Shown one piece after another: positions 2,258 to 28,308 of a stretch of DNA of 37,832 nucleotides (positions are counted from its first letter, which is position 1; each line of letters opens with the position of its first letter). The DNA is from a virus. The notes below the pieces were generated by a model. It saw only the letters and a program-made list of their open reading frames with translations, made no database searches and was not told the origin of the DNA. The stretch spans positions 1-37,832 of IMG/VR virus record IMGVR_UViG_3300017989_000228; one strand, 5' to 3'. The position numbers and the translations under genes were made by a program.

Positions 2258-2984
2258 CTCTTATTTCTTCCAAAATCATCCGGTTTGTCGCAACTAACTT
2301 GTCCTTATCAAAAATTATTTTCCCCCAAACAGACACTTTAGTCAATACTGAATTTTCAGGAGCAAATCTTTTTGAATCAGAAATTTTCATGCTGGCATGC
2401 AAACCAGCTACACACAGTTTTAGTTTTCCATCAAATTCAATTTCTTGTCCAATGGAAACCTCAATACCATCACGCATTATATATTTATCTCCATTTTTTT
2501 TAATGAAATGATACGCAGTAAAAGCATTTTTTTTATCAAACTCAAAACTGTAGCCGGAGCCGGAGCCGGAGCCGTCGCCGGAGCCAGAGCCACAACCATA
2601 GCCGTAGCCGTAGCCGGAGCCGAAGCCGTCGCCGGAGCCGTCGTCGTAGCCGTCGCCGGAGCCGTCGTCGTAGCCATCGCCGTAGCCGGAGCCGTCGCCG
2701 TAGCCGGAGTCACAACCATAGCCGTAGCCGTAGCCGTAGCCGTCACCGTAGCCGAAGCCGTCGTCGTAGCCGTAGCCGTCGCCGGAGCCGTCGCCACAAC
2801 CATAGCCGTAGCCGTAGCCGTAGCCGTCACCGTAGCCGAAGCCGTCGCCGTAGCCGTCGCCGGAGCCGAAGCCGTCGCCGGAGCCAGAGCCGTCGCCGGA
2901 GCCAGAGCCGTAGTCAGAGCCGGAGCCAAATCTGGAGCCTTTAATTATTATTTTGTCCAATTTTCTTTTGCCTGATTTGTACAT
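2226..2984 (-). CDS. Gly-X hexanucleotide-repeat protein with C-terminal 'GLHAS' domain
   Basis: About 252 residues if started at the ATG at 2984. Residues about 20-143 are almost pure Gly-X dipeptides with X = Tyr, Asp, Ser, Phe or Cys. The C-terminal ~100 residues form a compact domain with IEFDGKLKLCVAGLHAS and KVSVWGKIIFDKDKLVAT, resembling a small phage domain of unknown function (DUF7666 as I recall it). The 885-base maximal ORF would extend into the upstream DUF6948-like gene in another frame, so the later ATG is preferred although its ribosome site is poor. The repeat is a GC-rich island in an AT-rich genome. Confidence 0.7.
   Translation of the reverse strand: MYKSGKRKLDKIIIKGSRFGSGSDYGSGSGDGSGSGDGFGSGDGYGDGFGYGDGYGYGYGYGCGDGSGDGYGYDDGFGYGDGYGYGYGYGCDSGYGDGSGYGDGYDDGSGDGYDDGSGDGFGSGYGYGYGCGSGSGDGSGSGSGYSFEFDKKNAFTAYHFIKKNGDKYIMRDGIEVSIGQEIEFDGKLKLCVAGLHASMKISDSKRFAPENSVLTKVSVWGKIIFDKDKLVATNRMILEEIRDENSILQRAK
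2549..2935 (-). repeat. GGC-NNC hexanucleotide array
   Basis: On the coding strand the unit is GGC followed by a codon NNC (TAC, GAC, TCC, TTC), with occasional GGT-TGT. A segment of about 53 bases starting at 2711 recurs at 2795, an 84-bp offset or 14 units, showing expansion by multiples of six that preserve the frame. Because the period is divisible by three and lacks stops, all six frames are open across it. Confidence 0.9.
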
Positions 2985-3223
2985 TTCATTACAGCCGTCA
3001 AACCATTTAGGTAAATCTCTGGACATTTGGGCGTAATAATTGAATCGCTTATCGGACCAGTGTTGGCGAGACCAATAACACCGCCAACATCTTTGGGCCA
3101 ATAAATACACATTTTAGCATTTTTTAAAATGCATGTTTCATTTTTTTTGTCGTGCTCGACTAATTCGCCAAAAAAAACGCCTTTTTTGTCTGTCGTAACA
3201 ACAACATAATTTTTTTTCATCAT
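2948..3223 (-). CDS. DUF6948-like phage protein
   Basis: A 91-residue protein whose core NYVVVTTDKKGVFFGEL, NAKMCIYWP and the closing EIYLNGLTAVMKC match the pattern I recall for DUF6948 (short beta-rich phage protein with 'GVHFGxL', 'NARRIWYW' and 'EAIEIIPC' blocks). The start at 3223 follows AAAGGAG with five-base spacing; an ATG at 3280 would add 19 residues but has no site. Function unknown. It is followed, with overlap, by the Gly-X repeat gene. Confidence 0.7.
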   Translation of the reverse strand: MMKKNYVVVTTDKKGVFFGELVEHDKKNETCILKNAKMCIYWPKDVGGVIGLANTGPISDSIITPKCPEIYLNGLTAVMKCTNQAKENWTK

Positions 3224-3286
3224 TTTTTCTCCTTTAATTTTCATTAACACTGCTTGTTCTACCGTGCTGATTTCATCCATTTTATA

Positions 3287-3493
3287 TCACAACTCATCAA
3301 TTATTTTATATAATGCATTTATCATTTTATTTTTTAATCTACTTTCATGAACATAATCACTGGAATCACGAACATTCTTTTTTATAGAAAGAACGTTTCT
3401 AAAACACTTAATTGCATTTATTAAACATTCAATATCATCATCCCTTATATCTTTCTCCAAAACAACAACTAGGGCATTTATTCTATCAGTCAT
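3287..3493 (-). CDS. conserved small phage protein, unknown function
   Basis: A 68-residue helical protein (DRINALVVVLEKDIRDDDIECLINAIKCFRNVLSI...) of a type seen in many phage early operons, with no assigned function. The upstream 51-residue ORF ends at 3486, overlapping this start by eight bases, which supports both being translated. Confidence 0.7.
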   Translation of the reverse strand: MTDRINALVVVLEKDIRDDDIECLINAIKCFRNVLSIKKNVRDSSDYVHESRLKNKMINALYKIIDEL

Positions 3494-3846: not shown

Positions 3847-4503
3847 TCATAATTCAATATATAATTTATGATCATCGTTAAACAGAAATTTAATGCTATC
3901 TTGTTTACCAAATTCTCTGTTTTTCTGTACAAATAATTCAGCATCAAAATCTTCTTTCCCGTCCTCTGGCCGCCATAAGGCCAAAACATTATCTGTCAAA
4001 TTTGGAATATTGCTCGAACCATAAATGTCCATCTTATTTGGTTTATAATTCCGTCCATCGCCCTTTCTGGGATGAGTAATAATAAAAACATGACAATCAA
4101 ATTCCGTTGAAAAATCTTTACAATCACCAATAAAATCTTTCTGTTCGTTCAGTTCATACCTATGATTAAATTTAATTCTCATCAAAGAATCTATCACAAA
4201 AAACTTAATGCCATATTTTCGTGCTGCAAATTTAAAAACATCAAATAATAATTCTTTATCAATCTCACCTGTTTTATTTATTACATATAAATTATTACCA
4301 AAAAAATTGAACGTCTTATCAATCATATCATCATCAATATGACTTGATCGATTGTTCTGTATGACCATCCAGTTTAAATATCTTTTCGGTGATAATTCAA
4401 GCGAGAGAATACAACATTTTTTCATGTTTGTTAATTGAAATAATATTTCTTGAGATATAATCGTCGACTTTCCACTTCCGTTTTCACCTTGAATTATTGT
4501 AAC
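3847..4503 (-). CDS. DnaB/T7 gp4-type helicase module, downstream of an in-frame amber codon
   Basis: The frame continues directly from the primase gene past TAG 4504-4506. It begins VTIIQGENGSGKST (Walker A), then has Walker B KFFVIDSLMRI, the HVFIITHPRK motif, and a distal DIYGSSNIPNLTDNVLALWR block, as in ring helicases of the RecA/DnaB fold. The first ATG (4425) lies after Walker A, so independent initiation there would give a dead ATPase. Only rare ATA/ATT codons follow a weak AGAGAGG. I infer one primase-helicase polypeptide of about 542 residues, close in size to T7 gp4, made by amber readthrough or suppression, or else a recent nonsense mutation. Confidence 0.8.
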   Translation of the reverse strand, partial: VTIIQGENGSGKSTIISQEILFQLTNMKKCCILSLELSPKRYLNWMVIQNNRSSHIDDDMIDKTFNFFGNNLYVINKTGEIDKELLFDVFKFAARKYGIKFFVIDSLMRIKFNHRYELNEQKDFIGDCKDFSTEFDCHVFIITHPRKGDGRNYKPNKMDIYGSSNIPNLTDNVLALWRPEDGKEDFDAELFVQKNREFGKQDSIKFLFNDDHKLYIEL

Positions 4504-4506
4504 CTA
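4504..4506 (-). other. in-frame amber codon inside primase-helicase
   Basis: The context is GAG-GAA-TAG-GTT-ACA. Related helicases carry Glu or a similar polar residue here, before the first core strand, so Gln or Glu insertion would fit. TAG also ends at least eight other genes here (stops at 899, 1104, 5465, 7627, 22496, 29460, 32990, 36615), several overlapping the next start codon, so genome-wide reassignment of TAG is unlikely. Confidence 0.85.
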
Positions 4507-5475
4507 TTCCTCTCTCAAACCCTTTAAAATATAATTCAATCCTCTGAATCCAATATCATAACCATATCTTTTCTCATAATTTTTATTATGGTTTTTGACA
4601 TCTTCACGAAAATCATTTGCTTTTTTTAATATATAATGATCAAACTCTTTAGCATTTTTTTCCGCCTCATAAATTTTTTCTGATTTAATACTCTTAACAA
4701 GACAATCGTTTATATCTTTTTCCGGTAATAGAACATTATAACATCTCCATGACCCCAGCCTATTAACAATCGATTTAACAGCTGCCTGTCCAGCATTATC
4801 ATTATCAAAAAATAAATATATGTATTTAAAATTATCAATAAAATCCCAACAATTCTCTATCCATGATAAATCAGACACGCCATTTGGAACACTCACACCA
4901 GCAAGATCATATTCATGCGCTGCCATCACATCAAATTGCCCCTCGAATATTCTTAACGTATTTTCGTTTATGCAGTTATCCATATTAAACAAAATTGGTT
5001 TACAACCTTCCTCATTCCAAAACTTTTTATCTTCAAGCGATCTATATTTGACAAAAATTAATTCTTTATCAAAAAAATGTGGTATTGCAATTGCCTGATT
5101 TTTAATTCCAATTTTAAAATAATTTACAGTATCCTTTTTTATTTTTCTTTTATTGAAAAATTCATATAATTTATCATTCCTGGGATCACTTTTTATTTGC
5201 GGTTTTTTATATTTTTTCTCTTTACGTATAAAATTACGGTCTGAATCAAGAGGCAATGGCTTGTCATTATATAATTTTTGGAAATCCCACCAGCTCCCGG
5301 AAATACCACACTCATTTTTTCTAAAACATTGATATGCCCCCGAATCTAAATTTATAGCAAATTTTTGCTTGTTATCATCACAACGTGGGCAATTAAATAT
5401 TGCCTGTGTCCCGGAGGGCCTTGATACCTCTTTCCAGTTTATGCCCTTATTTCTAAGATATTCTCTAATATCCAT
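4504..5475 (-). CDS. T7 gp4/Twinkle-type primase (N-terminal part of primase-helicase)
   Basis: A 323-residue reading frame with a zinc-binding domain (CPRC at 29-32, Cys 50 and 56), then a TOPRIM domain with EGQFD and the metal-binding DNDNAG motif in the second half, followed by a linker and the start of the helicase domain (YGYDIGFRGLNYILKGL). It makes RNA primers and, when joined to the helicase module, would unwind the fork. It ends in TAG exactly where the helicase strand leading to Walker A should continue. The start ATG overlaps the TAG of the replisome organiser gene. Confidence 0.85.
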   Translation of the reverse strand: MDIREYLRNKGINWKEVSRPSGTQAIFNCPRCDDNKQKFAINLDSGAYQCFRKNECGISGSWWDFQKLYNDKPLPLDSDRNFIRKEKKYKKPQIKSDPRNDKLYEFFNKRKIKKDTVNYFKIGIKNQAIAIPHFFDKELIFVKYRSLEDKKFWNEEGCKPILFNMDNCINENTLRIFEGQFDVMAAHEYDLAGVSVPNGVSDLSWIENCWDFIDNFKYIYLFFDNDNAGQAAVKSIVNRLGSWRCYNVLLPEKDINDCLVKSIKSEKIYEAEKNAKEFDHYILKKANDFREDVKNHNKNYEKRYGYDIGFRGLNYILKGLREE

Positions 5476-6322
5476 TTACCGCCGCCTTTTCAAAGGCAAT
5501 TTTTCTTTTCTTGTCTTTAATTCTTTCAAACTCTTTAATTTCTTCTTTTGTTAAATCCTTAATATTCCTATCTTTATAATTCTGAAAAGGCTGCATATCT
5601 TCCATGAATTTATAAGCATGTTGAATAAAATCCCAGAACGCCCACCTGTGATTAAAATAATATTCATTTGAGTTTATTATCTTTTCGTATGTTTCCACGG
5701 CCCCCTTGATCTTATTATAGCCGTATTGATTTACAATATCACTATGTTTTTTCTTAACATTCTTTTTTATTACCGATTCTTTATGTGTTGGTAATCCATC
5801 ACAACTATTCCAAAAAATAGTTAAATCCTTTATGATAGTCTCTGTAGTAGTCTCTGTAGTAGTCTCTGTATAAAAGATTGGCTCTTTTTGGGCCTTGTGA
5901 TTGGCTCTTTTTGGGCCTTGTGATTGGCTCAATTTGGGTTCATCGGTCGCACCAATTGTGATATTTTTCTTTATGTTTTGTTCAATATTATATAATTCAT
6001 CGTAATTTATTGTATAAAACTTTGTATGATCCCATTTGTGTTTATTGAATTTTTCAACTAAAATTAAGTTCATTTCTTTTAGTTTGTTAAAAGTTCTCTT
6101 TATTGTGTTTTTACTCCAAAAAGAAAATTGCTCTTCCCACTCTTCAATTGTATTGTAAATCCAATATTGATTATCATAAAAACCCATTTTTGATTGTGTT
6201 TTTTCTTTTATTTTTATCCAATATTGTATTTGTTGTAATATAATAGCTTCATTCAATCCGATTTCCTTGGCCAAACTTGGAAGTATAACTAATGGGCTTT
6301 CATCAATTAAAAGCTTACTCAT
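5465..6322 (-). CDS. replication initiator / phage replisome organiser
   Basis: A 285-residue protein whose N-terminal ~110 residues form a winged-helix domain typical of phage replisome organisers: ILPSLAKEIGLNEAIILQQIQYWI, WIYNTIEEW and FWSKNTIKRTFNKLKEMNLI. A low-complexity linker (about 122-165, including TETTTETTTET) leads to a C-terminal helical domain that may load the helicase. The primase gene follows with an 11-base overlap. Direct repeats within the linker-coding part may be the replication origin, as in lambda O. Confidence 0.8.
   Translation of the reverse strand: MSKLLIDESPLVILPSLAKEIGLNEAIILQQIQYWIKIKEKTQSKMGFYDNQYWIYNTIEEWEEQFSFWSKNTIKRTFNKLKEMNLILVEKFNKHKWDHTKFYTINYDELYNIEQNIKKNITIGATDEPKLSQSQGPKRANHKAQKEPIFYTETTTETTTETIIKDLTIFWNSCDGLPTHKESVIKKNVKKKHSDIVNQYGYNKIKGAVETYEKIINSNEYYFNHRWAFWDFIQHAYKFMEDMQPFQNYKDRNIKDLTKEEIKEFERIKDKKRKIAFEKAAVNGY
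5836..5871. repeat. three tandem 12-bp repeats in replisome organiser gene
   Basis: The 12-mer TAGTCTCTGTAG occurs at 5836-5847 and 5848-5859, and with one change at 5860-5871. The period is a multiple of three and encodes Thr-Glu-Thr-Thr repeats. Together with the adjacent 23-bp repeats it forms a candidate iteron region. Confidence 0.75.
5876..5938. repeat. 2.6 tandem 23-bp repeats, candidate origin iterons
   Basis: The 23-bp unit beginning GATTGGCTCTTTTTGGGCC occurs at 5876-5898 and 5899-5921, with a diverged partial copy from 5922. Because 23 is not divisible by three, the two full copies are read in different frames (NHKAQKEP versus SQGPKRA), so conservation is at the DNA level rather than the protein level. 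This fits iterons for the organiser protein encoded around them. Confidence 0.6.
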
Positions 6323-9671: not shown

Positions 9672-9672
9672 G

Positions 9673-9846
9673 TCAACATACCTCTAATGTTATTTGATAC
9701 TCATCATTACAATCCATTTCTATTTTGTCGCCTGCATGTTCCAACCCGATCTTTTCAAGTGTTTCCATATCTGATATACTTGAAGGAAATAGTTGGATTA
9801 TTATTCCCTCTGTGCTGACTATTAAGGTTGCTTTAATTATTTTCAT
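9673..9846 (-). CDS. 57-residue hypothetical protein
   Basis: MKIIKATLIVSTEGIIIQLF..., beta-rich with one helix. The ATG overlaps the end of the ribbon-helix-helix gene by 14 bases, so it is probably translated as part of the same operon. No family recognised. Confidence 0.6.
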   Translation of the reverse strand: MKIIKATLIVSTEGIIIQLFPSSISDMETLEKIGLEHAGDKIEMDCNDEYQITLEVC

Positions 9847-9985
9847 TGTTTAATACATCCGCAATTATTCTTCTCATTAAATTCGTAAGAGATAATTTTA
9901 TACCTTCCTTTTTACCTTCATTCTCTGCCATCTCTTTTAATTTTTCTTTGTACTCATCAGGTATGTCTATTGTAAGTATTGCCAT
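9833..9985 (-). CDS. ribbon-helix-helix protein 1, candidate regulator
   Basis: A 50-residue protein, MAILTIDIPDEYKEKLKEMAE... with a short strand then two helices, as in Arc/CopG proteins. The start at 9985 has GAGGTG five bases upstream; the longer ORF from 10042 would run through its own promoter. It is the first gene of the recombination operon and faces the plus-strand ORF at 10133 across back-to-back promoters, so it may control one or both. Confidence 0.7.
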   Translation of the reverse strand: MAILTIDIPDEYKEKLKEMAENEGKKEGIKLSLTNLMRRIIADVLNNENN

Positions 9986-10011
9986 TTTTACACCTCGTTC
10001 GTTTTGATTAT

Positions 10012-10039
10012 AATATACTATATTTATTTTATTTGTCAA
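10012..10039 (-). promoter_or_regulatory. leftward promoter for recombination operon
   Basis: TTGACA (10034-10039), 16-bp spacer, TATATT (10012-10017). The -35 lies 30 bp from that of the divergent rightward promoter at 10070. Confidence 0.65.
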
Positions 10040-10069
10040 CAATTATTTTATTTTTTTTTATTATTTTAC

Positions 10070-10098
10070 TTGACTAATTCACTAATGTTCTGTATTAT
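10070..10098 (+). promoter_or_regulatory. rightward promoter 1
   Basis: TTGACT (10070-10075), 17-bp spacer, TATTAT (10093-10098). The predicted leader AGAAGATAATTAATTAAAGG resembles that of the second rightward promoter. Confidence 0.65.
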
Positions 10099-10132
10099 AT
10101 ATATAGAAGATAATTAATTAAAGGAGATTAAC

Positions 10133-10288
10133 ATGTATAAAAAAAATTGGTTTGTAGCAAATTGTGAAGGTGACTTAATTGGACATGATTTGTCTGAAGA
10201 AAAAGCAAAAGAATTAGAAAGCATTGTGTTTTATTTCTTGTTCAGTTTTCATTTCGGCAACCTTATTAAGAGAAAAATTATTCTTTGA
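10133..10288 (+). CDS. 51-residue plus-strand small protein
   Basis: MYKKNWFVANCEGDLIGHDL... with AAAGGAG upstream of the ATG. The first ~30 residues look like a small globular start (strand, turn, helix), but the C-terminal ~20 are oddly hydrophobic (FYFLFSFHFG), so the gene may be truncated or run into unrelated sequence. Transcribed against the flow of the genome; function unknown. Confidence 0.55.
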   Translation: MYKKNWFVANCEGDLIGHDLSEEKAKELESIVFYFLFSFHFGNLIKRKIIL

Positions 10289-10306
10289 TCTCTTATTACT
10301 GAGTAT

Positions 10307-10477
10307 TTAAGAACCAATTTTTTCCCAATTCTTACTGCGGCCAATTTCATTTTTTTCGTCATTTTTAATCCTCTTTAATCGTCTTCCGCAATCATTACAA
10401 AATAACGATTGTATAACAATGTCAGTATGCATTGTTGTAATTTTTTTGCAATCAGGGCACATATCTTCTGTCTTCAT
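10307..10477 (-). CDS. 56-residue zinc-ribbon protein
   Basis: MKTEDMCPDCKKITT... with CPDC (7-10) and CNDC (27-30) and a basic tail. Its ATG overlaps the TGA of ribbon-helix-helix protein 2 (AAATGA), so the two are coupled. It may be a DNA-binding partner; unproven. Confidence 0.6.
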   Translation of the reverse strand: MKTEDMCPDCKKITTMHTDIVIQSLFCNDCGRRLKRIKNDEKNEIGRSKNWEKIGS

Positions 10478-10629
10478 TTCAGGTACTCCAATATATCACT
10501 TTCAAGAGCTTCTTTTATGGCCTTGTCAAAAAGCAACATGGTAAGCCCGGTGATTTTAATTTTTTTTTCATCTGCTTTTTTCTTTAATTTTTCATATAGA
10601 TCATCATTAACGTTTATTGATATTTTCAT
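10474..10629 (-). CDS. ribbon-helix-helix protein 2, candidate regulator
   Basis: A 51-residue protein, MKISINVNDDLYEKLKKKADE..., with the strand-helix-helix layout of Arc/CopG/MetJ proteins. AGAGG lies close to the start. It faces the plus-strand ORF 10786-10938 across divergent promoters, an arrangement parallel to that of the first ribbon-helix-helix gene. Autoregulation and repression of the divergent promoter are likely by analogy. Confidence 0.7.
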   Translation of the reverse strand: MKISINVNDDLYEKLKKKADEKKIKITGLTMLLFDKAIKEALESDILEYLK

Positions 10630-10658
10630 TATAACCTCTTTTTTCTTGTGATAAACAT

Positions 10659-10687
10659 AATGTACTAAAAAAATATATTTTTGTCAA
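10659..10687 (-). promoter_or_regulatory. leftward promoter for ribbon-helix-helix 2
   Basis: TTGACA (10682-10687), 17-bp spacer, TACATT (10659-10664). Between it and the rightward promoter the A-rich motif AAAAAATAT recurs with an ~11-bp spacing (10688-10716), a candidate operator. Confidence 0.55.
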
Positions 10688-10716
10688 GAAAAAATATAAA
10701 AAAATATAAAAAATAC

Positions 10717-10744
10717 TTGACTTTTTTTATATATTTAGTATATT
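10717..10744 (+). promoter_or_regulatory. rightward promoter 2
   Basis: TTGACT (10717-10722), 16-bp spacer, TATATT (10739-10744). Together with the opposing -35 box it forms the inverted repeat GTCAAG/CTTGAC spanning the A-rich operator-like stretch. Confidence 0.6.
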
Positions 10745-10785
10745 AGTATTAGAAGATAACTAAATCAATTAAAGGAGATTAACAA

Positions 10786-10938
10786 ATGACTACATCACAA
10801 CAAGCAGAACAAATCAAACAGGAAGCCATTTCTAACGGAGTGCCAGACTGGTATTTCGACGAAATCAATGACGAATGTTTGGTTCAATATTCGGCCAATG
10901 ATATTCTCAAATTATATGAAGAAAGCCAGATGGAATAA
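10786..10938 (+). CDS. 50-residue acidic plus-strand protein
   Basis: MTTSQQAEQIKQEAISNGVP... ending ESQME, acidic and helical, preceded by AAAGGAG. The leader matches that of the 10133 gene over roughly 25 bases. It is followed at once by a hairpin related to the one after the next gene. Small acidic early proteins of this kind often bind host factors; function unknown. Confidence 0.6.
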   Translation: MTTSQQAEQIKQEAISNGVPDWYFDEINDECLVQYSANDILKLYEESQME

Positions 10939-10939
10939 A

Positions 10940-10994
10940 GATTAAATCTTTACCCTTTCCCCTCCAGTGGGGGGGATTGGGCAAGGTTTTAATC
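10940..10994 (+). ncRNA. G-rich hairpin 1 after plus-strand gene
   Basis: Arms around TTTACCCTTTCCCC and GGGGGGATTGGGCAAGG, extended by a 7-bp outer helix GATTAAA/TTTAATC. A closely similar element follows the next gene at 11368-11411. It may be a terminator, processing site or antitermination RNA; the U-run is short (TTTT) and lies within the stem. Confidence 0.55.
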
Positions 10995-11024
10995 CTTGAA
11001 TATCTTTTAGAAGGAGATTAGCAA

Positions 11025-11369
11025 ATGAAATTAAAAAAGAATGAGATTGCAGTTTTTAGGATAAGGGATTTCGATAATTTTTATCATGGAAAAATACACT
11101 ACCTGTATTTCACAGATAATGACGATTGTTTAAAAACCCTGAGAAGCAATTCAAAATATCTTGATTTCTGGGATGGAAACAACTGGAAACAAATAGAAAT
11201 TGAATATGTTGAAAAGATCAATTTTGTCAATTATGAAAACACTACAGGAAAGCCAGCTTTTTCATTTTCAAGGAGTTATGAATTGAAAAATGGAAACGTT
11301 TTAAATTTAGTTACTTCAAATACTTCTGGAAGCATTACGCCATATTGGAAAGAAGAGTGCATGTTTTAA
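11025..11369 (+). CDS. 114-residue plus-strand protein, unknown function
   Basis: MKLKKNEIAVFRIRDFDNFYHG..., a beta-rich, aromatic-rich soluble protein with no family I recognise. The ATG follows AGAAGGAGATTAGCAA, a variant of the leader shared by the other two plus-strand genes. No promoter of its own is evident, so it is probably read through hairpin 1 from the promoter at 10717. Its TAA falls within the base of hairpin 2. Confidence 0.65.
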   Translation: MKLKKNEIAVFRIRDFDNFYHGKIHYLYFTDNDDCLKTLRSNSKYLDFWDGNNWKQIEIEYVEKINFVNYENTTGKPAFSFSRSYELKNGNVLNLVTSNTSGSITPYWKEECMF

Positions 11370-11411
11370 AGCTTTACCCTTTCCCCTTCCGGGGGGATTG
11401 GGCAAGGTTTT
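11368..11411 (+). ncRNA. G-rich hairpin 2, homologue of hairpin 1
   Basis: AAAGCTTTACCC and GGGCAAGGTTTT pair with two G-U pairs, enclosing CCCC/GGGG. Shares CTTTACCCTTTCCCC and GGGGGGATTGGGCAAGG with the element at 10940-10994, showing duplication of a gene-hairpin unit. Confidence 0.6.
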
Positions 11412-11416
11412 AAACG

Positions 11417-11577
11417 CCTTGTAAAAAGGTACTTCCGGCGAGGTACTAATTGTTAATCTTCTGGCTCTGTCCTCATTCAGGGGGGCAGGGTCAGAGGGTT
11501 AAAAACTCTCTCCGGACACAACGGCAAATGTGTTGACGGCAGGAAGATTAGAAGTGGTAGACCGCAACCAAAAGAAA
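11417..11577 (+). ncRNA. structured untranslated RNA region
   Basis: No ORF is present. Hairpins occur at 11417-11429 (CCTT/AAGG), 11428-11447 (GGUACUUC/GAGGUACU), a 20-bp perfect stem at 11453-11472 with 11483-11502 including five G-U pairs valid only on the plus strand, and 11516-11533. GAAGATTA at 11543-11550 is complementary to the 5' arm of the 20-bp stem (11454-11461), allowing an alternative fold. It ends at a terminator, so it may be a stable 3' RNA or antitermination element. Confidence 0.5.
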
Positions 11578-11578
11578 G

Positions 11579-11602
11579 CCCTCCATTTCTGGAGGGTTTT
11601 TT
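11579..11602 (+). terminator. rho-independent terminator, probably bidirectional
   Basis: CCCTCC, loop ATTTCT, GGAGGG, then TTTTTT. On the other strand the same stem is followed by CTTTCTTTT, so it can also stop the leftward late transcript that ends at 11637. Confidence 0.85.
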
Positions 11603-11636
11603 AAAAGGTATATAACTAAATAAAATTTAAAGGGTG

Positions 11637-17051: not shown

Positions 17052-19783
17052 GGACTGTACGCCCTCGCAAATTTAATCCTTAGATTTTGCCGCCCGGTTT
17101 CAGTTAACTTGTAATGGTCAGCACTCGCATTAACATTATCATAAATTAAGAAATAAACATTAAAATTACTCGGGTTTGTTACTGAATCAGGGTAAAATCT
17201 TATTTCATCATTTCCACTATTGAGCATAAGCATGATATTATCATAATCGGCGTTTCTTATACCCTCACCAAAATTTATTGTGACTTCCTCTTGCCAAGCC
17301 TCGTACGTGCTTGCGATTGATCCGTCTTTTCTATCTGTTTTTGTTTTTCCGACTGCTTTGTGAACAACTTTAAAGCCGCCCCCTGGCTTCTCCACGGAAA
17401 AACTTGTCCAGCTTTCAACATCACCTATCGGGGTTGAATTGTGTGCCCCCCCGTCCCTATCTGGATTGGTGTCATTAGCTAATAAATATCCTGGAGAGTC
17501 CACTGGATACCCCAGCACTCTTTTCTTCAAATTTAAATCCGTATCCGCTTCGATGAGCGCCCCCTCATTCACAAAAAGAGGATTGGCAGCAACAACCGAG
17601 GTTCCAGCGGTCGCATTATTAAGAACGTCCGTATTTATTGAATATGAGAACGTGACGGCCACATCTGCATTGATTCCGTAAATTGAGTTGTCGTGAATAA
17701 TATTATTGATTATTGTCTCATTAGCGCCGTTATTATTTTCAAATCTCATTGCAGAATTATTGGCAAAAAATGTCACATGTTCAACCGTTATATCCCCACT
17801 ACCAGCCGCCGCACCTTTTATGTGTAAAGCATACCCCGTTTTATTGCATCTATAAAATAGACAATCTTCAAATATTGCAGCTGTGCTTTCGCAGTAAATG
17901 CCCTGGTCACTGTCATGTATCGTACAATTACTTGCATTAACTTCATGGTTAGAATAAACAGCATATGCATCATTTCCCCTATTTACGTTCTCAGCGTTTT
18001 TAAGCTCAGTCCAGAATAAATCAAGGTCGGTTCCATTTACATAAAGCATTCTATAACAAAAATTTTCATCATAACACTTTATTGATACACCGTTTATAAT
18101 TGCATCTGCGTCAATCTGAATACAATCATATCTATAAGAATCATATATTACAAACTTCCCTTTGTCTCCATCGTCGTCGTCCATATATGTAAAGACAAAA
18201 TCATTTGTGCTTTGCATACAGCTTGATAAATCCTGGATCGCTCCGGCTTCAAATTCTGTTGCCGTTACTATCTGATTATATAATTGATCTATGATTGTAA
18301 ATTTTCCTTTGTCGCCGTCGTCGGCATCACTATAAGATATAACAAAAGCACCGTTAGACATTGCATTTACTCTTATATCGTTCGGATCATTTGCGGTCCA
18401 TATATTCCCGGACGTTAAAATAGTTCCATCAGAATCCAAAACACGATAACGACCATCGGGAACAGCCGTCCGGCCTGCCATAATTATATTATCATTTGAA
18501 TCAATATCCATATCATAATGCTGGTTTTGATAACCAACGCTTGTAGCTGCTTTTACCTGTGTTCCAGTAGAATCAAATATTTGATACTCGTTTCCTCCGC
18601 TTCCGTTATACATTATAACAAAATTGTCGTTTGACATTGATTTAACCCTGATGTAACTCGCAACCCCTGAATCAAATTCTGTTTTTGCTTTTGTTACTGT
18701 TCCAGTAGAATCATATATTGTAAAATATGCTTTGTTGTCTCCGGTATCAACATATGCAATTACAAAACTTGAGTCAGATAAACCAATTACTGCAAAATAA
18801 GCTACTGACCCGCTATCAAACTCAGTCGACGATTTTACAATTGTTCCAGAAGAATCATATATTACGAATTCACCAGCGTTAGCATCTAAAGCGTCAGCAT
18901 AAATTATAACAAAATTCTGATTTTCAAGCACCGTACAACTATTAACTGTAACAGTCCCTTGCGTGTGGAATGAAGTCGGACCAGTGATAAGAGTTCCATC
19001 ACTATCATATATAGAAAAATAACTTTCAGTTGAGATACTGTCATAATAAGCAACAACAAAATTATCATCTGAAAAAACACCACATGACGCTCCAGTGATC
19101 GAATTACCTGTGAATTCAGAAATTGCTTTTTTTGTACTCATCGAATCAACAAAAGACGGATTGGCATGTAATTGAATATCCGGGGCAAATCCTATCCTTG
19201 CAACAAGCTTTTTAAAATTTCCTGTCATAGAAAAGCCTTCCTCTACATACGTCTGGGAGGCATTAACATCATTGATAACAACCGCCTGGTGTGTGACATC
19301 ACACTGAGAACCGGCGTGGCCTATTGTAAGATAAGGCAGTGATTCCGTACCATTGCCAGTAGTATCATTTCCTGTCTTTGCAACAAAGATTGAATTCGCA
19401 TCGGACGGGGTATAATCCAGCACCCTTTTTGTGTATTTGGCATTAGAAAACTTCCCATAAAACCCTGCAAAATTACTATTATCAATAGTGTCTAACTCTT
19501 CATTATATTCTTCATTAAAAAGAGCAACTACTTTTGTTTTTGTGCTTGTGCACGCATTCGCAGAGGCGAGTAATGTTTTTTTCGGTAGTGCCTGCGTTCC
19601 TGGGTTGGTATCACTACCCAATGAATCATTAACAAATATTGAATTATCATCTGTATACGTATAATCGACTAAATCAATCACTATCCATTCTTCAGGGCCT
19701 ATAACATTTTTTTCGAATGCAAATTTATTATTCTGTGGATCATAATCGAATTTCATGTATATGTCATTATAAAAGTCATGCAT
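17048..19783 (-). CDS. large tail protein: seven-bladed propeller within beta-helix, Dit-like end
   Basis: A 911-residue protein. Two N-terminal beta-helix entry motifs (IFVNDSLGSDTNPGT near 50, IFVAKTGNDTTGNGT near 130) are followed at about 220-565 by seven repeats of ~50 residues of the form NFVIAYxD...FxIYDSxGT, as expected for a seven-bladed propeller. A right-handed beta-helix follows (about 570-790), then a ~115-residue C-terminal domain reminiscent of distal tail proteins. It comes right after the tape measure, where Dit genes sit, so it is probably a distal tail protein carrying carbohydrate-binding modules. No catalytic motif is seen. Confidence 0.65.
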   Translation of the reverse strand: MHDFYNDIYMKFDYDPQNNKFAFEKNVIGPEEWIVIDLVDYTYTDDNSIFVNDSLGSDTNPGTQALPKKTLLASANACTSTKTKVVALFNEEYNEELDTIDNSNFAGFYGKFSNAKYTKRVLDYTPSDANSIFVAKTGNDTTGNGTESLPYLTIGHAGSQCDVTHQAVVINDVNASQTYVEEGFSMTGNFKKLVARIGFAPDIQLHANPSFVDSMSTKKAISEFTGNSITGASCGVFSDDNFVVAYYDSISTESYFSIYDSDGTLITGPTSFHTQGTVTVNSCTVLENQNFVIIYADALDANAGEFVIYDSSGTIVKSSTEFDSGSVAYFAVIGLSDSSFVIAYVDTGDNKAYFTIYDSTGTVTKAKTEFDSGVASYIRVKSMSNDNFVIMYNGSGGNEYQIFDSTGTQVKAATSVGYQNQHYDMDIDSNDNIIMAGRTAVPDGRYRVLDSDGTILTSGNIWTANDPNDIRVNAMSNGAFVISYSDADDGDKGKFTIIDQLYNQIVTATEFEAGAIQDLSSCMQSTNDFVFTYMDDDDGDKGKFVIYDSYRYDCIQIDADAIINGVSIKCYDENFCYRMLYVNGTDLDLFWTELKNAENVNRGNDAYAVYSNHEVNASNCTIHDSDQGIYCESTAAIFEDCLFYRCNKTGYALHIKGAAAGSGDITVEHVTFFANNSAMRFENNNGANETIINNIIHDNSIYGINADVAVTFSYSINTDVLNNATAGTSVVAANPLFVNEGALIEADTDLNLKKRVLGYPVDSPGYLLANDTNPDRDGGAHNSTPIGDVESWTSFSVEKPGGGFKVVHKAVGKTKTDRKDGSIASTYEAWQEEVTINFGEGIRNADYDNIMLMLNSGNDEIRFYPDSVTNPSNFNVYFLIYDNVNASADHYKLTETGRQNLRIKFARAYSP

Positions 19784-21774
19784 TAGTAAACACCCTCTTC
19801 ACCATAATTATTAACACCCATTGACCTGGCTTTCTCAGTTCTTGGTTCCTCTATTCCTTCAGCTAATACTTTAGAGTCAAGCAGCACTTGAACAATACGC
19901 GGGCTTTCATCCCCGCCCTCTGGACCTGATAAAGTAATTTCTGATTTCTTTAAATTCTCGGTTATCGGTTTTGTGAGAACTGTTTCACCTGCATGCAACA
20001 TGCCTAGCTTATTCTCTGGTAAATCAAAGACGCCTTTGGCAAACATCGACGGTTCGGGCGTTTGTGAAATTTGCTGTACAACGGCCATACCAGCGGCAAT
20101 TGTTAATCCCATAAAAATTAGTCCAAGAATAGGCCCGACGATCGGAATCGAACTCATGGCGGCAAGGGCCGAGACACCAGCGGCAAGGGCTGAAATAATC
20201 GCGCTTGCTATTCTTAATTTCTTTTCACGCTTTGCCTCGCGTCTTTTGATTAGCTTCTGATGTAATTCAAATAATTTATCTTGCTCAGTAAGTGCCTTCC
20301 TTTTTTCATCCTCATCCTTGACAGTAGCCTCAATCAATGCCTTTCTAAATTTATAACCGTTTTCAAGGTTAGCCATTGCCCTTTGTTGCTCTGCATCCCA
20401 GATGTCCCCAAGCTGACCGGATAAACTACTTGCCATTGAAATTAAAGAGCTTGAATAATTAGCAAATTTATCAAGTCTTTCCTGGAATGGGTCAACGCCT
20501 TTTTTTCCCTTATCTTCTTTTTCCCCTTTTCTTCCGGCTGTAGGATCAAGGGTCTTTGTTGCATCTGCCAATAATTTAGCCTGTTCCATTATTGCCACTC
20601 TTTGAGCATTTTCAAGCCCGACCAATTCCCGTCCTGACTTTACAAGATTATTTTTAATTTGTAATAATTGTTTTTCTGACTCTATCAATTCCTTTTTGGA
20701 TTTAACGTTTTCGTCTTCAGCTTCTTTAATCGTTTTTTCTAACTGTAATTGTTTTTCACCTGTAGCAGTTAATAATTTTCTTTTATTATTTAAAATTACT
20801 AATGAATTACCTGCCACTGTTATTTTGTTAATTAACCATGATATACCGGTAACAAGTCCAGCTATAGCAGAACCAATAATAGAAACAATATTTCCGACCT
20901 TGCCAAGAACTTTACCTAAAACACCACCCGATTTTGTAAGCAAACCAAAAGATTTAATTAGATCCTTTATACCCGGACCCATCTTTTTACCCATATCAAT
21001 TAAAACTAAAGTAAAGTTGTCTTTAAGAGTTGAAAACATACCTGACATGGTGCGGGATTGTTTTTCAAGCATGCCCGCAAATTTGCCGGTTCCAGTGGTA
21101 AGATTTTTGAGTGCCATATCAACATCAGCAAAACCTACTTTGCCCTGACTTACCATCTTAACAATAGCAGTTGTAGTCACCCCAAATTTATCGGCAAGCG
21201 CCTGGATAATTGGCACCCCAGCTTCAGCAAATTGACGAATCTCTTCCATACTTGCTTTGCCAATAGTTTTAACTTTACCGTAAGCAAGGCCTAACCGGGA
21301 AAGTATTTCTTGATTACCCTGGGCTGCGTTTCCAAGATTACGCATAGTTTCAACAATCTTTTCTTGTTCAACCCCGAACGCTAAAAGTTGCTTTGACGTC
21401 TCAACCAATCCCGGTAGTTGGAAAGGTGTTTCCGCAGAGAAATCTTTTATTTCTTTTAATAGGTTTTTTGCATTTTTTGCACTCCCCAACATAGTGGAAA
21501 ATGCAACCTCAAATTGCTCCATTTGTGCGGCTGCTTTAAATGCCTTTTTGCCAATATCGATAAAGAACCGAACAATTCCAAGAGCAAGAAAGGCTTTTAA
21601 TGCTTTTCCAAGCATACCAACGCCACCGGCCATTTTTTTCATGCCCTTTGAGCCTTTGTCACCGGCCTCTTGGGCAGCCTCTCCGGTATCCTCTAAAGCA
21701 GCCGCGCTTTTCTTTGTGGCTGCTATTAGTTGACCATTCTCTAATATTATCTCTAGTTCTATTCGCTCAGCCAT
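19783..21774 (-). CDS. tape measure protein
   Basis: A 663-residue protein with an N-terminal helical region (ATKKSAAALEDTGEAAQEAG), the conserved tape-measure domain (FEVAFSTMLGSAKNAKNLLKEIKDFSAETPF... through about 270), hydrophobic segments near 275-310 and about 540-590, and coiled coil around 330-400 and 480-530. It sets tail length and leaves the tail at DNA ejection. At about 1.5 angstrom per residue it predicts a tail near 100 nm. It follows the frameshifted chaperone pair, as in lambda G-T-H. Confidence 0.85.
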   Translation of the reverse strand: MAERIELEIILENGQLIAATKKSAAALEDTGEAAQEAGDKGSKGMKKMAGGVGMLGKALKAFLALGIVRFFIDIGKKAFKAAAQMEQFEVAFSTMLGSAKNAKNLLKEIKDFSAETPFQLPGLVETSKQLLAFGVEQEKIVETMRNLGNAAQGNQEILSRLGLAYGKVKTIGKASMEEIRQFAEAGVPIIQALADKFGVTTTAIVKMVSQGKVGFADVDMALKNLTTGTGKFAGMLEKQSRTMSGMFSTLKDNFTLVLIDMGKKMGPGIKDLIKSFGLLTKSGGVLGKVLGKVGNIVSIIGSAIAGLVTGISWLINKITVAGNSLVILNNKRKLLTATGEKQLQLEKTIKEAEDENVKSKKELIESEKQLLQIKNNLVKSGRELVGLENAQRVAIMEQAKLLADATKTLDPTAGRKGEKEDKGKKGVDPFQERLDKFANYSSSLISMASSLSGQLGDIWDAEQQRAMANLENGYKFRKALIEATVKDEDEKRKALTEQDKLFELHQKLIKRREAKREKKLRIASAIISALAAGVSALAAMSSIPIVGPILGLIFMGLTIAAGMAVVQQISQTPEPSMFAKGVFDLPENKLGMLHAGETVLTKPITENLKKSEITLSGPEGGDESPRIVQVLLDSKVLAEGIEEPRTEKARSMGVNNYGEEGVY

Positions 21775-22159
21775 TGCCCTGTGCCTTCAATTGCTTGCCT
21801 ATTATTTCATTCTTTATTTGCTCGTCAAAACCAATATCATGATTCTTCTTTTTGTTGAAATCTTGTAGCATCCTTTCATCTCTTTGATTGATCTTTTCAT
21901 TTAAGTAATCTTTATAAATATCAGTATCTAAGTCTTTTGTTGGCTCTATCCCATGAACTCTATATAATAAAATATTATCATTCATTATTTTCTCGTATTC
22001 TCTTTTCTCTTCCTCAATCAAATATAAAACCGCTTTTCTTATCTCAGTACTATAAATATCTTTTTTATTCCACCCCTTTGTCTGTAATATCATAATCTGA
22101 TTATCAATTATATCATCCAATTTTAATATATACTCGTCAAAACTTATACCGCTTTCAAG
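21767..22159 (-). CDS. tail assembly chaperone, frameshift extension (lambda T-like)
   Basis: This frame has no ATG start (a TTG occurs at 22120) but is open from the GGGAAAC heptamer at 22159-22165 in the upstream chaperone gene and continues ...LESGISFDEYILKLDD.... A -1 slip there yields a fusion of about 242 residues: 112 from the upstream gene and 130 from here. In lambda the gpG and gpGT products, made at GGGAAAG, guide tail assembly around the tape measure; position between tube and tape measure is the same. It overlaps the tape measure start by eight bases. Confidence 0.75.
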   Translation of the reverse strand, partial: LESGISFDEYILKLDDIIDNQIMILQTKGWNKKDIYSTEIRKAVLYLIEEEKREYEKIMNDNILLYRVHGIEPTKDLDTDIYKDYLNEKINQRDERMLQDFNKKKNHDIGFDEQIKNEIIGKQLKAQGNG

Positions 22160-22494
22160 TTTCCCTGCTCCCTATCCTCTTCTAATTCATTCACAGGATT
22201 TAAAACTCTATCATTAAAAAAATTGGTTACTACTTTATATTCGTTAACCCTGACTTCTTTAATCATTTTTCTTAATGACCGGAATGGCTTTTTGAAAGGC
22301 CAAAATCCTTTTTTTGGAATGCATTTCCATATACACCTGAAAACAAAATAATCAAAGTTGTATCTTTGCCCTTTCGCCTGCAGTTTTCTATCAACTTCTA
22401 TGAGCCTGTTATACACGCCCATGAATTTCATGTAATGCACATACCTGAAAATAATTTCAACTTCTTTTCCCCCGATTACCATTGTGTCTTTCAT
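22144..22494 (-). CDS. tail assembly chaperone (lambda G-like)
   Basis: A 116-residue basic helical protein ending REQGNLKAV. The heptamer GGGAAAC near its end lies in the correct phase (G-GGA-AAC) for -1 slippage into the frame of the next ORF. It lies between tail tube and tape measure, the standard place for these chaperones. Sequence identity to known families is not recognised; the call rests on position, size and the slippery site. Confidence 0.7.
   Translation of the reverse strand: MKDTMVIGGKEVEIIFRYVHYMKFMGVYNRLIEVDRKLQAKGQRYNFDYFVFRCIWKCIPKKGFWPFKKPFRSLRKMIKEVRVNEYKVVTNFFNDRVLNPVNELEEDREQGNLKAV
22159..22165 (-). promoter_or_regulatory. programmed -1 frameshift site GGGAAAC
   Basis: X-XXY-YYZ heptamer, zero frame G-GGA-AAC, seven codons before the TAA at 22144. 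Shifting gives GGG-AAA-CTT and enters an open frame of 131 codons. Confidence 0.75.
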
Positions 22495-22495
22495 A

Positions 22496-22759
22496 CTACC
22501 TCGTTATAAAATAAAATTCATTGCAAATCATACAAACCGCCACATATTTAAAAATCAAAAACTTCTCCCCCTCATGACAGGCCGGGCAATACCTGAGCTT
22601 AAAAGCGTTAAACAATGGCTCTGTAATTTCCAACGGCCGCCCGGCTCGCTTAACCATTGAAGAACCCTTGATAAGCCGCGGGATAATTTGCTTTCCCGCG
22701 GCCATGTGTTTTAAGCTTCTTTCTTCCTCAGTTATTAACGCTCTTATCTCATCCATCAT
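22496..22759 (-). CDS. zinc-ribbon protein between tail tube and chaperone genes
   Basis: An 87-residue protein with a helical N-terminus and YCPACHEGEKF ... CMICNEF near residues 57-81, a CxxC/CxxC zinc ribbon. It overlaps the tail tube stop by four bases and is separated from the chaperone gene by one base, so it is part of the tail operon. A tail accessory or completion role is possible; unknown. Confidence 0.6.
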   Translation of the reverse strand: MMDEIRALITEEERSLKHMAAGKQIIPRLIKGSSMVKRAGRPLEITEPLFNAFKLRYCPACHEGEKFLIFKYVAVCMICNEFYFITR

Positions 22760-23894
22760 TCAGGTGTCGTATTGCTGAAAATTCCTATTCTATTTTCTGT
22801 ACTATCGTACATAACCTGAACATTAACATTAAATTCACCATAATTTTTTTCGGGAAACGGAAAGCTCATTCCCGCTGGCTTGACTCTATACAGCAACATA
22901 TTGTAAAGAGTGCCCGCGTTAGTCTCCGAAAATATTGTCATTCCATACTCCTGAAAATCCATAGGTTGCTCGCCTATAATGGCGCTATAGCTACCACCAT
23001 GCGGCTTTTGTACATAAAATTTCGCCGTATCATCGGTGGTCATGGCTATTGCTGATGAACTGCCGCCGGTAAGGGTAAGTCCAAAATTATCTACATCAAC
23101 CGTTGCCCCCGAGGCCGGCACAGTAATCGGAGACGCCGTAATTTTGCCGTCATCATCCTCATACGCCTCATCTGTTCCCCTTGCGAAATTTGAACTGCTC
23201 ATAGCATAAATGTCTACTGTTGCTGCCGCTGTAGCCTTAATTACATACCACCCTTCTTTCAGTTCATCCTTTCCAGTGCTTGCCTTAACTGTAATGGTTG
23301 CTATCCCTTCAGCTGCATCAATTACAGACGTTCCATTTACGTTATCCTCATCTATAACATCCCCATCCGTGTCAGCTGCATATTCCGTAACATTACCAGC
23401 TACATTAGTAGCTATAATGTCACCTGTCATTTCTCTTGCTACTATTGATACCGTTGGCTCAAAAGAACTTATCGCTGAATCCCAGACAAAAAGGTTTGAC
23501 CCACCTTTAAGCTGAGCAAATTCTGCGGGCATTTCAATCATAACATCCCCGAGTACTCGGTAATATGCTTGACTGAGCCATGTAGTTCTACTAAAAACAT
23601 TTATATTCGCTATTGGTCGTCAATCAATAACCGCTTTCGCTGCTTGTAGTCCCCTACAAGATTAGACTATATCACCAACCTTTACAGGTTGCCCGGCGCT
23701 TCCACTACCGACTTGTAGTGTACTCCCTTTCGGGATAGTCGTTGCACCTTCCTCAATTGAGGCTTGGCTCAGGATTGTCTGGTCTAGAGTTCCCCTGAGT
23801 TCACCGGGTTTGCAACATGCGTTACCACATGAGGCGGCAATTTTTACCGTATATCATGTATCCCAAAAATGGATCGCTTTTGGCTTTCGCTCAT
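22756..23894 (-). CDS. major tail tube protein, gene interrupted by group I intron
   Basis: Exon 1 is 23894-23846 (MSESQKRSIFGIHDIR plus one base) and exon 2 is 23597-22756; joined they give 296 residues. The spliced N-terminus FGIHDIRFFSRTTW...AYYRVLGDV followed by ELKGGSN-like QLKGGSNLFVWDS matches the pattern I recall for phage tail tube proteins (GIHxITPYSRTTG...KVLG...LxGGSN). The C-terminal half looks Ig-like. Exon 1 has AAAGGAGG seven bases before the ATG. Without splicing, translation stops one codon past the splice site. Confidence 0.8.
23598..23845 (-). ncRNA. group I intron (ORF-less, about 248 nt) in tail tube gene
   Basis: Core elements: P1 CGGU|AA with UUGCCG giving the U-G at the 5' splice site; P3 CCCGG (23808-23804)/CCGGG (23696-23692); P4 CTCAGG/CCTGAG with the familiar AATCCTGAGCCAAGCC; P6 CCTCAATTGAGG; P7 GACTAT (23740-23735)/ATAGTC (23670-23665); extra P7.1 (CCC-GAAA-GGG) and P7.2 (CACTAC/GTAGTG) hairpins as in subgroup IA; P8 AACC/GGTT; P9 CTTGTAG/CTACAAG. 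The 3' end is the G at 23598, and exon 2 begins UUUUU, complementary to the AAAAA of the P1 loop (P10). Confidence 0.9.
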
Positions 23895-23907
23895 TTACTT
23901 GCCTCCT

Positions 23908-24378
23908 TTAACAAAAAAATACATCCTTATAAACCTCAAAAAATATCACCGCTCGCCCGATCCAGAATTCACCATTCGGATGCTTTGAAATATCCGTCGC
24001 GAAATCTGGCCTAAAGGGGTATTTATTAACGACCTCCCCGAAGGTCAAATCTTGATAAATCGCTGCTTTTATATCATCGTAAATATCAAAGAGTCCTTTA
24101 AATGATCCCTTTCCCTCTTTGACCTTTACTTTCTCTTTGTGCCAGTTTGAAAACATTATTATTACAGGGTAAATTCTGCGCTCTGCCTGATGTTCTGATA
24201 AAGTCCCGGCCCTTTCAACTCTGAAATCAGTTAAATCAAAATTAACATACGGAAAATTTGCCTTATCTTCAAGTGACAATTCATCCTCATACTCAGTCCA
24301 GGATTTAATATAGTTTAATGTACTATAATTCTGCAATTGTTCACTTATTGCCTGTATTATGTCATTGGCTTCACTCAT
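23908..24378 (-). CDS. tail terminator-like protein
   Basis: A 156-residue alpha/beta protein (FPYVNFDLTDFRVER ... RRIYPVIIMFSNWH ... RAVIFFEVYKDV) of the size and strand pattern of gpU-type tail terminators, located between the tail-completion gene and the tail tube. It would cap the tube at the head-proximal end. Four-base overlap with the upstream gene. Family match is by pattern and position. Confidence 0.65.
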   Translation of the reverse strand: MSEANDIIQAISEQLQNYSTLNYIKSWTEYEDELSLEDKANFPYVNFDLTDFRVERAGTLSEHQAERRIYPVIIMFSNWHKEKVKVKEGKGSFKGLFDIYDDIKAAIYQDLTFGEVVNKYPFRPDFATDISKHPNGEFWIGRAVIFFEVYKDVFFC

Positions 24379-24887
24379 GATTTCATTTCATCCGCTATAT
24401 ATTTTTCAACAAATTCTTTTATCTTTTTATTTAAAAACTCTTTAGCATATTCAAAAATAGGCCGCTTTCGATTAAAGTATTTAGCATATTCTCTTACTCG
24501 CACATTTCTTGATTTTGCCGTTCCTCTTTGCATGCCTGAGACAGCCGGATTAAGTTGATATAACATGCTTTTTTTCTTGTATTTAGTAATAGCTTTAGTT
24601 GATACGGCTGTTCTTAAAGCACCTGTCATAATACCGATTGTTACCGGGTATCCTTTTTTTGCTTTCCATGCTCTGTATTTGGTAGTCAATTTTGCCCACC
24701 CTGCTGGGTTGGCTTCACTAAATACGTGCCGCATAGTGTCCTTAATCCAGGGCGTGATAACCGAAAAAACGTCTTTCATATCAGAGGCGTCACGCGCACC
24801 TTTTTCTAATCGTGCGATTATATATTCAAATGTGGCCTTACCCCCGGGCTTTTTAGCCTGTATTTTTATAACATTTTCAACTGCCAT
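24375..24887 (-). CDS. tail completion / virion morphogenesis protein
   Basis: A 170-residue basic protein. The segment WAKLTTKYRAWKAKKGYPVTIGIMTGALRTAVSTKA (about 72-107) follows the pattern of the Mu gpG/P2 gpS-type virion morphogenesis family (W-x-x-L...Y...K...iL..TG.L). The start at 24887 has AAGGAGAG upstream; a longer frame from 24977 lacks one. It overlaps the connector gene by 11 bases. It probably joins the tail to the connector. Confidence 0.65.
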   Translation of the reverse strand: MAVENVIKIQAKKPGGKATFEYIIARLEKGARDASDMKDVFSVITPWIKDTMRHVFSEANPAGWAKLTTKYRAWKAKKGYPVTIGIMTGALRTAVSTKAITKYKKKSMLYQLNPAVSGMQRGTAKSRNVRVREYAKYFNRKRPIFEYAKEFLNKKIKEFVEKYIADEMKS

Positions 24888-25344
24888 GAATAGAGACTCT
24901 CCTTTGCAATCTCGCACCTTGCTGAAAATCATAACCACCCTCGGCCAGACTCCACTTTGCTTTCTCAATATAATCATTTGCGGCCATTTCTTTGCCTATG
25001 GTGCCAAGAGTGGAAAAAGTAACGTCTCCCTGCGTCCGGGATTCCCTTGCCGCTCTTCTTCGGTATTTATCGCGCCTACCGTGTAATAAATAAAACTCTG
25101 CTATCGAAAAATATACTTCCGCCCGATAAACATATAATTCAGTTGTACTTAATCCCGTTTTGTCCAGTGCTTCCAGTGCATCATAGGTGTCTTCACCTAT
25201 TACCGGTTCCATGCGCTCTAATTTGGCTATATCAATTGCATATTCAAGGTCTTCTTGAAATTTAGATTCATTGTCATAGCCATACGTCTGAAACGCCTCT
25301 AGTTCCTTTTTCATGTCTTCTATCTCATACGTTTCACTGAGCAT
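24877..25344 (-). CDS. head-tail connector (adaptor) protein
   Basis: A 155-residue mainly helical protein (SKFQEDLEYAIDIAKLERMEPVIG ... ELYVYRAEVYFSIAEFYLLHG) whose size and position directly after the minor head protein match HK97 gp6/SPP1 gp15-type adaptors that bind the portal. It starts at the stop of the minor head gene. Assigned by pattern and synteny. Confidence 0.6.
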   Translation of the reverse strand: MLSETYEIEDMKKELEAFQTYGYDNESKFQEDLEYAIDIAKLERMEPVIGEDTYDALEALDKTGLSTTELYVYRAEVYFSIAEFYLLHGRRDKYRRRAARESRTQGDVTFSTLGTIGKEMAANDYIEKAKWSLAEGGYDFQQGARLQRRVSIHGS

Positions 25345-26324
25345 TACACAGCCTCCTTTTCAGCAAGAAATAATAATGTTTCAATTCTGTTATAATCGGT
25401 TTTGGACAATGGCCGAATGCTATGTTTGCAATTTGGCCCGAATGCACCTCTTGCCCGTGCCTCACTAATAGTGAGTATTCTAAAAATAGCTGCTGCCCCT
25501 GGATCATGGGCAATTAAGCTTTTACCTTTAAATCTTTTTGAGAGTATTTCCGCGCACACTTGACGACGTATGCTGGTTTTATACGGTGTTTTATCCCGCC
25601 TAAAATACTCACTCACTCGCCTTTGTTTTATTATTTCCTGCATTTCCACGCCATTTCTTTCTACATTAAGCGCGGTTGTCCTGGTTGCCATCTCTGAATA
25701 ATCATCAAACCTGTGTTTGCTGCCATCTCTATAAATTATGAATTGGTCTTTATCAAGCATTTTCTCGAAATCTGGATTCGCTTTTAAAATATCTTTTTTT
25801 ACTCTCTCCATGAAAGCAGCTTTATTTTTTTGAAATGCTTCGCCTGTTTTTACAAGTGCATCAAATCTGGCACTTTCTGAAATCAATTTAGTTTGATATT
25901 TTCTAATATTTGATAATATCAAATTATTAGTTCTTGATAAAGCACCCTCAATATTTTCTTTGAAAAGTTGTATTGAATTGTTTATTATAGTTTTTTTTGC
26001 CAGTGGATTAGTAATTTTAAGCTTTTTGAAAACTGCCTCCGAATAAACAAACCTCATGAATTTTCTGTATAGCTTTTCCATTGCAGCACTCACCCCGGTT
26101 GACGCTCCTGATATTCTAATTGATAGAGCCCTTGTCTCTTTTGACGAAAGTAAATTCTCTCCTTTGCGAAGTGCTTTTTTCATAAGCGTCTGATATTGCT
26201 CCGCTAGCGAGACAATATATTTAGCAATAAATAAATCGATCGCCCTTTGCGGATTTCCTTTCCGCGCCACTTCTTCGTAACGCTTCAGGTCTTTCTTGCT
26301 TATTTTGTCTTTAAATATCGGCAT
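25344..26324 (-). CDS. minor head / minor capsid protein (phage_min_cap2-like)
   Basis: A 326-residue basic helical protein. The C-terminal half has DGSKHRFDDYSEMATRTTALNVERNGVEMQ and a final GAFGPNCKHSIRPL, the pattern of phage minor capsid proteins of the Mu gpF/SPP1 gp7 group (R-x-T-T ... GPNCRH). These sit inside the procapsid near the portal and may be ejected. Its unusual location well after the capsid gene is caused by the block of accessory virion genes between 26.5 and 32 kb. Confidence 0.75.
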   Translation of the reverse strand: MPIFKDKISKKDLKRYEEVARKGNPQRAIDLFIAKYIVSLAEQYQTLMKKALRKGENLLSSKETRALSIRISGASTGVSAAMEKLYRKFMRFVYSEAVFKKLKITNPLAKKTIINNSIQLFKENIEGALSRTNNLILSNIRKYQTKLISESARFDALVKTGEAFQKNKAAFMERVKKDILKANPDFEKMLDKDQFIIYRDGSKHRFDDYSEMATRTTALNVERNGVEMQEIIKQRRVSEYFRRDKTPYKTSIRRQVCAEILSKRFKGKSLIAHDPGAAAIFRILTISEARARGAFGPNCKHSIRPLSKTDYNRIETLLFLAEKEAV

Positions 26325-26526
26325 TTTCTATTTCTTTTTCTGCCTCAAAAAATGATTTCTTCTTTTTCTTATCAGTCTTTTTAATAAAATTATCAATCAC
26401 ACCCTTGCAATCGCAACTATAGTATTTCCCTTTCTTGACGAGATTATAATCTCTTACCATTTGCGATATTGAAGTACCTTCAAATCTTTTTTTACATCGA
26501 TAACATTTAATAACGTATTTTTTCAC
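26311..26526 (-). CDS. 71-residue zinc-ribbon protein
   Basis: MKKYVIKCYRCKKRFEG ... YSCDCKGV: CxxC at 8-11 and CxC at 38-40, with a lysine-rich tail. Overlaps neighbours on both sides by 4-14 bases. Similar small zinc ribbons recur near phage minor head genes; function unknown. Confidence 0.6.
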   Translation of the reverse strand: MKKYVIKCYRCKKRFEGTSISQMVRDYNLVKKGKYYSCDCKGVIDNFIKKTDKKKKKSFFEAEKEIENADI

Positions 26527-26879
26527 AATATACTCTCCTTTATTATTAATGGCGATTCATACCTAATTACGTCAGTATCTACGGTAATTATTGCCTGAAT
26601 TTCTGATATATATTTACCAGGAGGCAGCAACGTTGATGTATTCTCGCTCGCCGGTATGTTTACCAACACTACCCCATTCGCCCCACCTGTTTTATCAAAA
26701 TTTCCGTCGGTTTTCTCAATTAAATAAGTATCATCCGTCAATTTAGCTTTAGCCTTGAATGTAAATATTGCACTAGATACATCCAATAGCTCTAATTTGC
26801 CTGTAGTCTGATTGCGCCGCCTAAATGTCCATTGTATCCATCGGCCCTCACCGTTGCGCAATTCTATTTCATTTGACAT
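26523..26879 (-). CDS. Ig-like virion accessory protein
   Basis: A 118-residue all-beta protein (IELRNGEGRWIQWTFRRRNQ ... YESPLIIKES) with the alternating pattern of BppU-like or Ig-like beta sandwiches used in fibre bases. It belongs to the accessory virion gene block. Specific family not certain. Confidence 0.55.
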   Translation of the reverse strand: MSNEIELRNGEGRWIQWTFRRRNQTTGKLELLDVSSAIFTFKAKAKLTDDTYLIEKTDGNFDKTGGANGVVLVNIPASENTSTLLPPGKYISEIQAIITVDTDVIRYESPLIIKESIL

Positions 26880-28305: not shown

Positions 28306-28308
28306 TCA

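Follow-up and report, generated by a model that had tools for sequence, protein, structure and literature searches.

In phage T7, one gene region (gp4A/gp4B) is able to yield both a primase-helicase and a shorter product, and the short form is a helicase made from an internal start. The 4A/4B annotation was seen in the analysis. Proteins of the T7 gp4/Twinkle type (PHROG 239; PDB 6n7i, 5ikn, and 8e2l) are built in the order zinc-binding region, TOPRIM, linker, and RecA-like helicase. In Pseudomonas phage vB_Pae_CF34a (MK510965; L042:1617-1619), a TAC to TAA change divides the primase-helicase into two annotated genes, and the gene is intact in CF3a. Phages known to recode TAG carry numerous interrupted genes together with suppressor tRNAs; in phAss-1, 41 ORFs and three tRNAs are concerned (PMC10607447).

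The gene described here lies in an IMG/VR virus record (IMGVR_UViG_3300017989_000228), the whole of which, 37,832 bases, was analyzed and is called the window below. A direct repeat of 123 bases was found at its ends, and the genome is thus probably complete. The window encodes a terminase, a portal, a capsid, a tape measure, a DnaD-like loader, a Gam-like/Gp157 protein, a Rad52-like protein, and an amidase endolysin, a gene content from which it follows that the host is a bacterium; the phage is a siphovirus. Capsid relatives (55–59% identity) were found chiefly in Bacillota genomes, and the primase-helicase gene is mostly absent from them because the replication module has been swapped.

A frame of 543 codons extends on the minus strand from an ATG at 5475 to a TGA at 3847 (3847..5475), and its sole internal stop is a TAG at codon 324 (4504..4506, minus strand), seen as CTA on the plus strand. 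The upstream part (4507..5475, minus strand) contains the primase, with zinc-binding cysteines (CPRC..C..C) and a TOPRIM domain (Toprim_2, E 7e-11), followed by the linker, and its 323 amino acids match PHROG 239 positions 32–357 (E 7e-48). The 218 codons of the downstream part (3847..4503, minus strand) encode the RecA-like helicase core (DnaB_C, E 1.9e-9) and match positions 360–598 of the same family (E 9e-41). Since the two matches adjoin, the two pieces join without a gap, and the read-through product gives a single PHROG 239 match over 16–541 (E 4.5e-96). In the Pfam search, TOPRIM was placed upstream of the TAG and DnaB_C downstream, so that the TOPRIM primase and the DnaB_C/RecA helicase domains occur in one frame only when the TAG is read.

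The earlier note, written from the letters of the window, had described a T7/Twinkle-like primase-helicase with continuous primase and helicase frames, split just before Walker A by a lone in-frame amber, with all motifs kept in both halves and no usable start ahead of Walker A. This description proved correct. The zinc cysteines and TOPRIM are recognizable in the upstream part, and Walker A (GENGSGKST, 4462-4488, minus strand), Walker B (FFVIDS), the H-motif, and the arginine-finger region (KNRE) are kept in the downstream part. No ATG, GTG, or TTG was found between the TAG and Walker A, and the first in-frame ATG 3′ of the amber (4423-4425, minus strand) lies beyond Walker A and is not preceded by a Shine-Dalgarno sequence. 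The order of domains is thus that of T7 gp4 and Twinkle, but, unlike in these proteins, an amber stands at a mostly Glu/Gln site preceding the strand that leads toward Walker A. As with gp4A/gp4B, one gene region could yield a primase-helicase and a shorter product; however, the short form here would be the primase.

The downstream frame is not a chance opening, since the probability of a random open frame of 218 codons at the same composition is about 2e-8. GC3 is 0.241 and 0.239 on the two sides of the TAG and codon usage is likewise equal, and the downstream part therefore bears no visible decay. From the intact motifs, the earlier note had concluded that the downstream part appears to be under selection. 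The intactness itself was confirmed, but it is expected both of a recent mutation and of a codon that is read, and does not separate the two.

The alignment with relatives that the same note had proposed was carried out on 91 homologues, most of them from IMG/VR, the others from phage records, and one from a bacterial genome, using a scan profile of four sequences, since one built from eight distant homologues proved too divergent for scanning. All 91 carry a sense codon at the aligned site (0/91 stops), and the stop is private to IMGVR_UViG_3300017989_000228. Glu (41 homologues), Phe (13), and Gln (12) lead the residues at the site; Phe is restricted to one divergent group, and the other residues derive in part from gapped alignments and are to be read loosely. 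In a curated alignment, eight of nine homologues have Glu, and both T7 gp4 (GGEV) and Twinkle (KGEL), alignment to which places the site, also carry Glu there. The commonest Glu codon (GAG, 29 genes) and the commonest Gln codon (CAG, 10 genes) are each one base away from TAG. Even the nearest homologue shares only about 32% identity, and there is thus no close relative on which conservation of the stop could be followed.

Because the stop is absent from 91/91 related genes, the TAG most likely goes back to an ordinary point mutation, or perhaps to an error in assembly, rather than to a decoding trick. We favor, with a probability of roughly 0.63, a nonsense substitution that is recent and private to this genome, the primase-helicase gene (T7 gp4/Twinkle type) being otherwise intact. 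Among the options listed in the earlier note, a fresh nonsense mutation fits best the 0/91 count, the prevalence of Glu and Gln codons one step from TAG, and the parallel with phage CF34a. The latter is the only one of the 91 homologues (1/91) whose match contains any internal stop, and no internal stop was found among 98 capsid homologues (0/98); such genes seldom carry a lone nonsense codon, yet it does arise as a private accident. Over 3 kb, CF34a and CF3a show 3 base differences, the nonsense change among them. The CF34a gene belongs to the same family, and its frame, annotated as two genes, is likewise continuous but for a single nonsense substitution; it differs from the present case in that the stop is TAA and lies just after Walker A, and that the database contains intact, near-identical copies.

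Under the nonsense reading, a GAG (Glu; G to T) or CAG (Gln; C to T) codon most likely became TAG in the sampled genome. Translation would then end past the primase and the linker, leaving the helicase core, including Walker A, without useful output, and the TAG allele would probably be mildly deleterious or transient. The phage might cope with it if the DnaD-like loader, putatively encoded by the helicase loader/replication initiation gene directly upstream (5465..6322, minus strand; phrog_6493, E 9e-43), recruits the replicative helicase of the host. Two observations count against a nonsense mutation. The gene probably matters for replication, and a true null should therefore be selected against; moreover, the phage population looks clonal across three metagenome assemblies, the site being covered in one. 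Since no nearer relative with the gene was found, the recency of the substitution is judged from the intactness of the two halves. If the TAG is a private nonsense allele, its significance is a matter of annotation, and one interrupted primase-helicase, not two genes, should be recorded.

Foremost among the alternatives, and still improbable, is an assembly or sequencing error, in which the contig has a wrong base and the true codon is a sense codon. The site is known from a single record, is not spanned by any second contig, and carries a codon that a single base separates from the consensus Glu/Gln codons, as would be expected of an error; a search of IMG/VR with a DNA pattern in which the codon was left open retrieved no other record covering it. 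The window agrees at 100% identity with the IMG/VR contig 3300017987_000419 over 21.2 kb and with 3300029258_001786 over 26.0 kb, and the same phage strain is thus present in three assemblies. These contigs span 18868-37832 plus 1-2281 and 11822-37763 plus 1-54, and neither reaches 4504. The absence of any difference in 47 kb speaks against an error, as it limits the error rate to about 6e-5 per base at most (95% bound), with the reservation that the two contigs may stem from related samples and are not fully independent. Assembly errors are therefore rare.

Next in order, and likewise doubtful, is a host that suppresses amber codons or terminates inefficiently at them, so that an amino acid would be inserted at some rate to give the primase alone plus the full primase-helicase. 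The intact downstream part with its normal codon usage, the variety of residues accepted at the site in homologues (among them Gln, which amber suppressors commonly insert), and the recovery of the population in three assemblies are all consistent with it. However, no credible tRNA gene was found in the window, where a relaxed ARAGORN search gave only poor tRNA-like folds, and the RNA 3′ of the TAG folds no better than shuffled sequences (z +0.79; pseudoknots left out). The lack of conservation of the stop also argues against suppression, as do eight other genes of the window, including that of the DnaD-like protein, that terminate with TAG. The earlier note had taken such TAG ends to count against simple recoding, as we do; its remark that each is followed by a backup stop was correct (the next TAA or TGA is 6–13 codons beyond), but this spacing is ordinary, being no different from that after TAA/TGA ends (Mann-Whitney rank test, p = 0.30). 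A post-hoc threshold gave p = 0.03 for closer backup stops at TAG ends, against the 0.30 of the rank test, and was not counted as evidence. Programmed readthrough, also raised in the earlier note, found no support: neither a stimulatory RNA structure, nor a phage suppressor tRNA, nor another conserved gene interrupted by an in-frame TAG was found in the window, and the stop is absent from the homologues, of which the nearest is about 32% identical. We consider it quite unlikely that the phage keeps the stop and that its natural host reads it in part, giving at a set ratio the primase alone and a smaller share of complete primase-helicase. Genuine reading of the amber would mean that a DNA phage adjusts its primase:helicase ratio via stop-codon readthrough, and would be evidence of natural amber suppression in the host.

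It is very improbable that the gene is truly split, with the helicase half made from a rare start (ATA/ATT, codons 327-328) coupled to the TAG. A purine-rich GAGAGAGGAA lies directly 5′ of the TAG, mycobacteriophages have helicases that consist of the RecA core only, and an N-terminally truncated DnaB-like protein retains helicase activity (PMC4523182). Yet the purine stretch corresponds merely to Arg-Glu-Glu codons, the start of the product would fall within the strand toward Walker A, and 0/91 homologues are divided at this point, so that an ATA or ATT start for a separate helicase product is unlikely. In addition, the N-C linker stabilizes the Twinkle hexamer (PMC9723800), and a core without the linker would therefore probably be weakened.

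Genome-wide recoding of TAG to sense (a code 15-like phage or a pyrrolysine-type code) is hardly credible: a TAA or TGA does follow every other TAG end within 13 codons, but at the spacing seen in other genes, only one recognized gene is interrupted by an in-frame TAG, and the peptidoglycan amidase and the capsid relatives in bacterial genomes, mostly of Bacillota, favor a bacterial host. As in phAss-1 (PMC10607447), an in-frame TAG stands within a conserved gene, but, unlike TAG-recoded phages, the window has a single such TAG, lacks a suppressor tRNA gene, and retains TAG as a terminator.

Three same-frame ORF pairs (3287-3493/2948-3280, 13890-14306/13620-13874, and 29997-30347/29460-29996) were weighed as possible additional split genes and rejected, as no family match joins them. 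The small ORFs 3287-3493 and 2948-3280 (minus strand) are separated by one TGA, the second has a poor Shine-Dalgarno sequence, and no family match was obtained for the two, whether taken singly or joined. Few minus-strand ORFs are present in 9672-11636, and the plus-strand ORFs 10409-10651 and 11025-11369 of this region gave no PHROG match. Finally, Rfam model RF00028 detected a group I intron at 23643-23856 (minus strand; 83.3 bits, gathering 50). It is flanked by a short start MSESQKRSIFGIHDI (~23894) and by an open frame running into 22756-23541. The surrounding exons, read only in three frames, had no PHROG match; the intron probably interrupts a virion protein gene, perhaps that of the tail tube.
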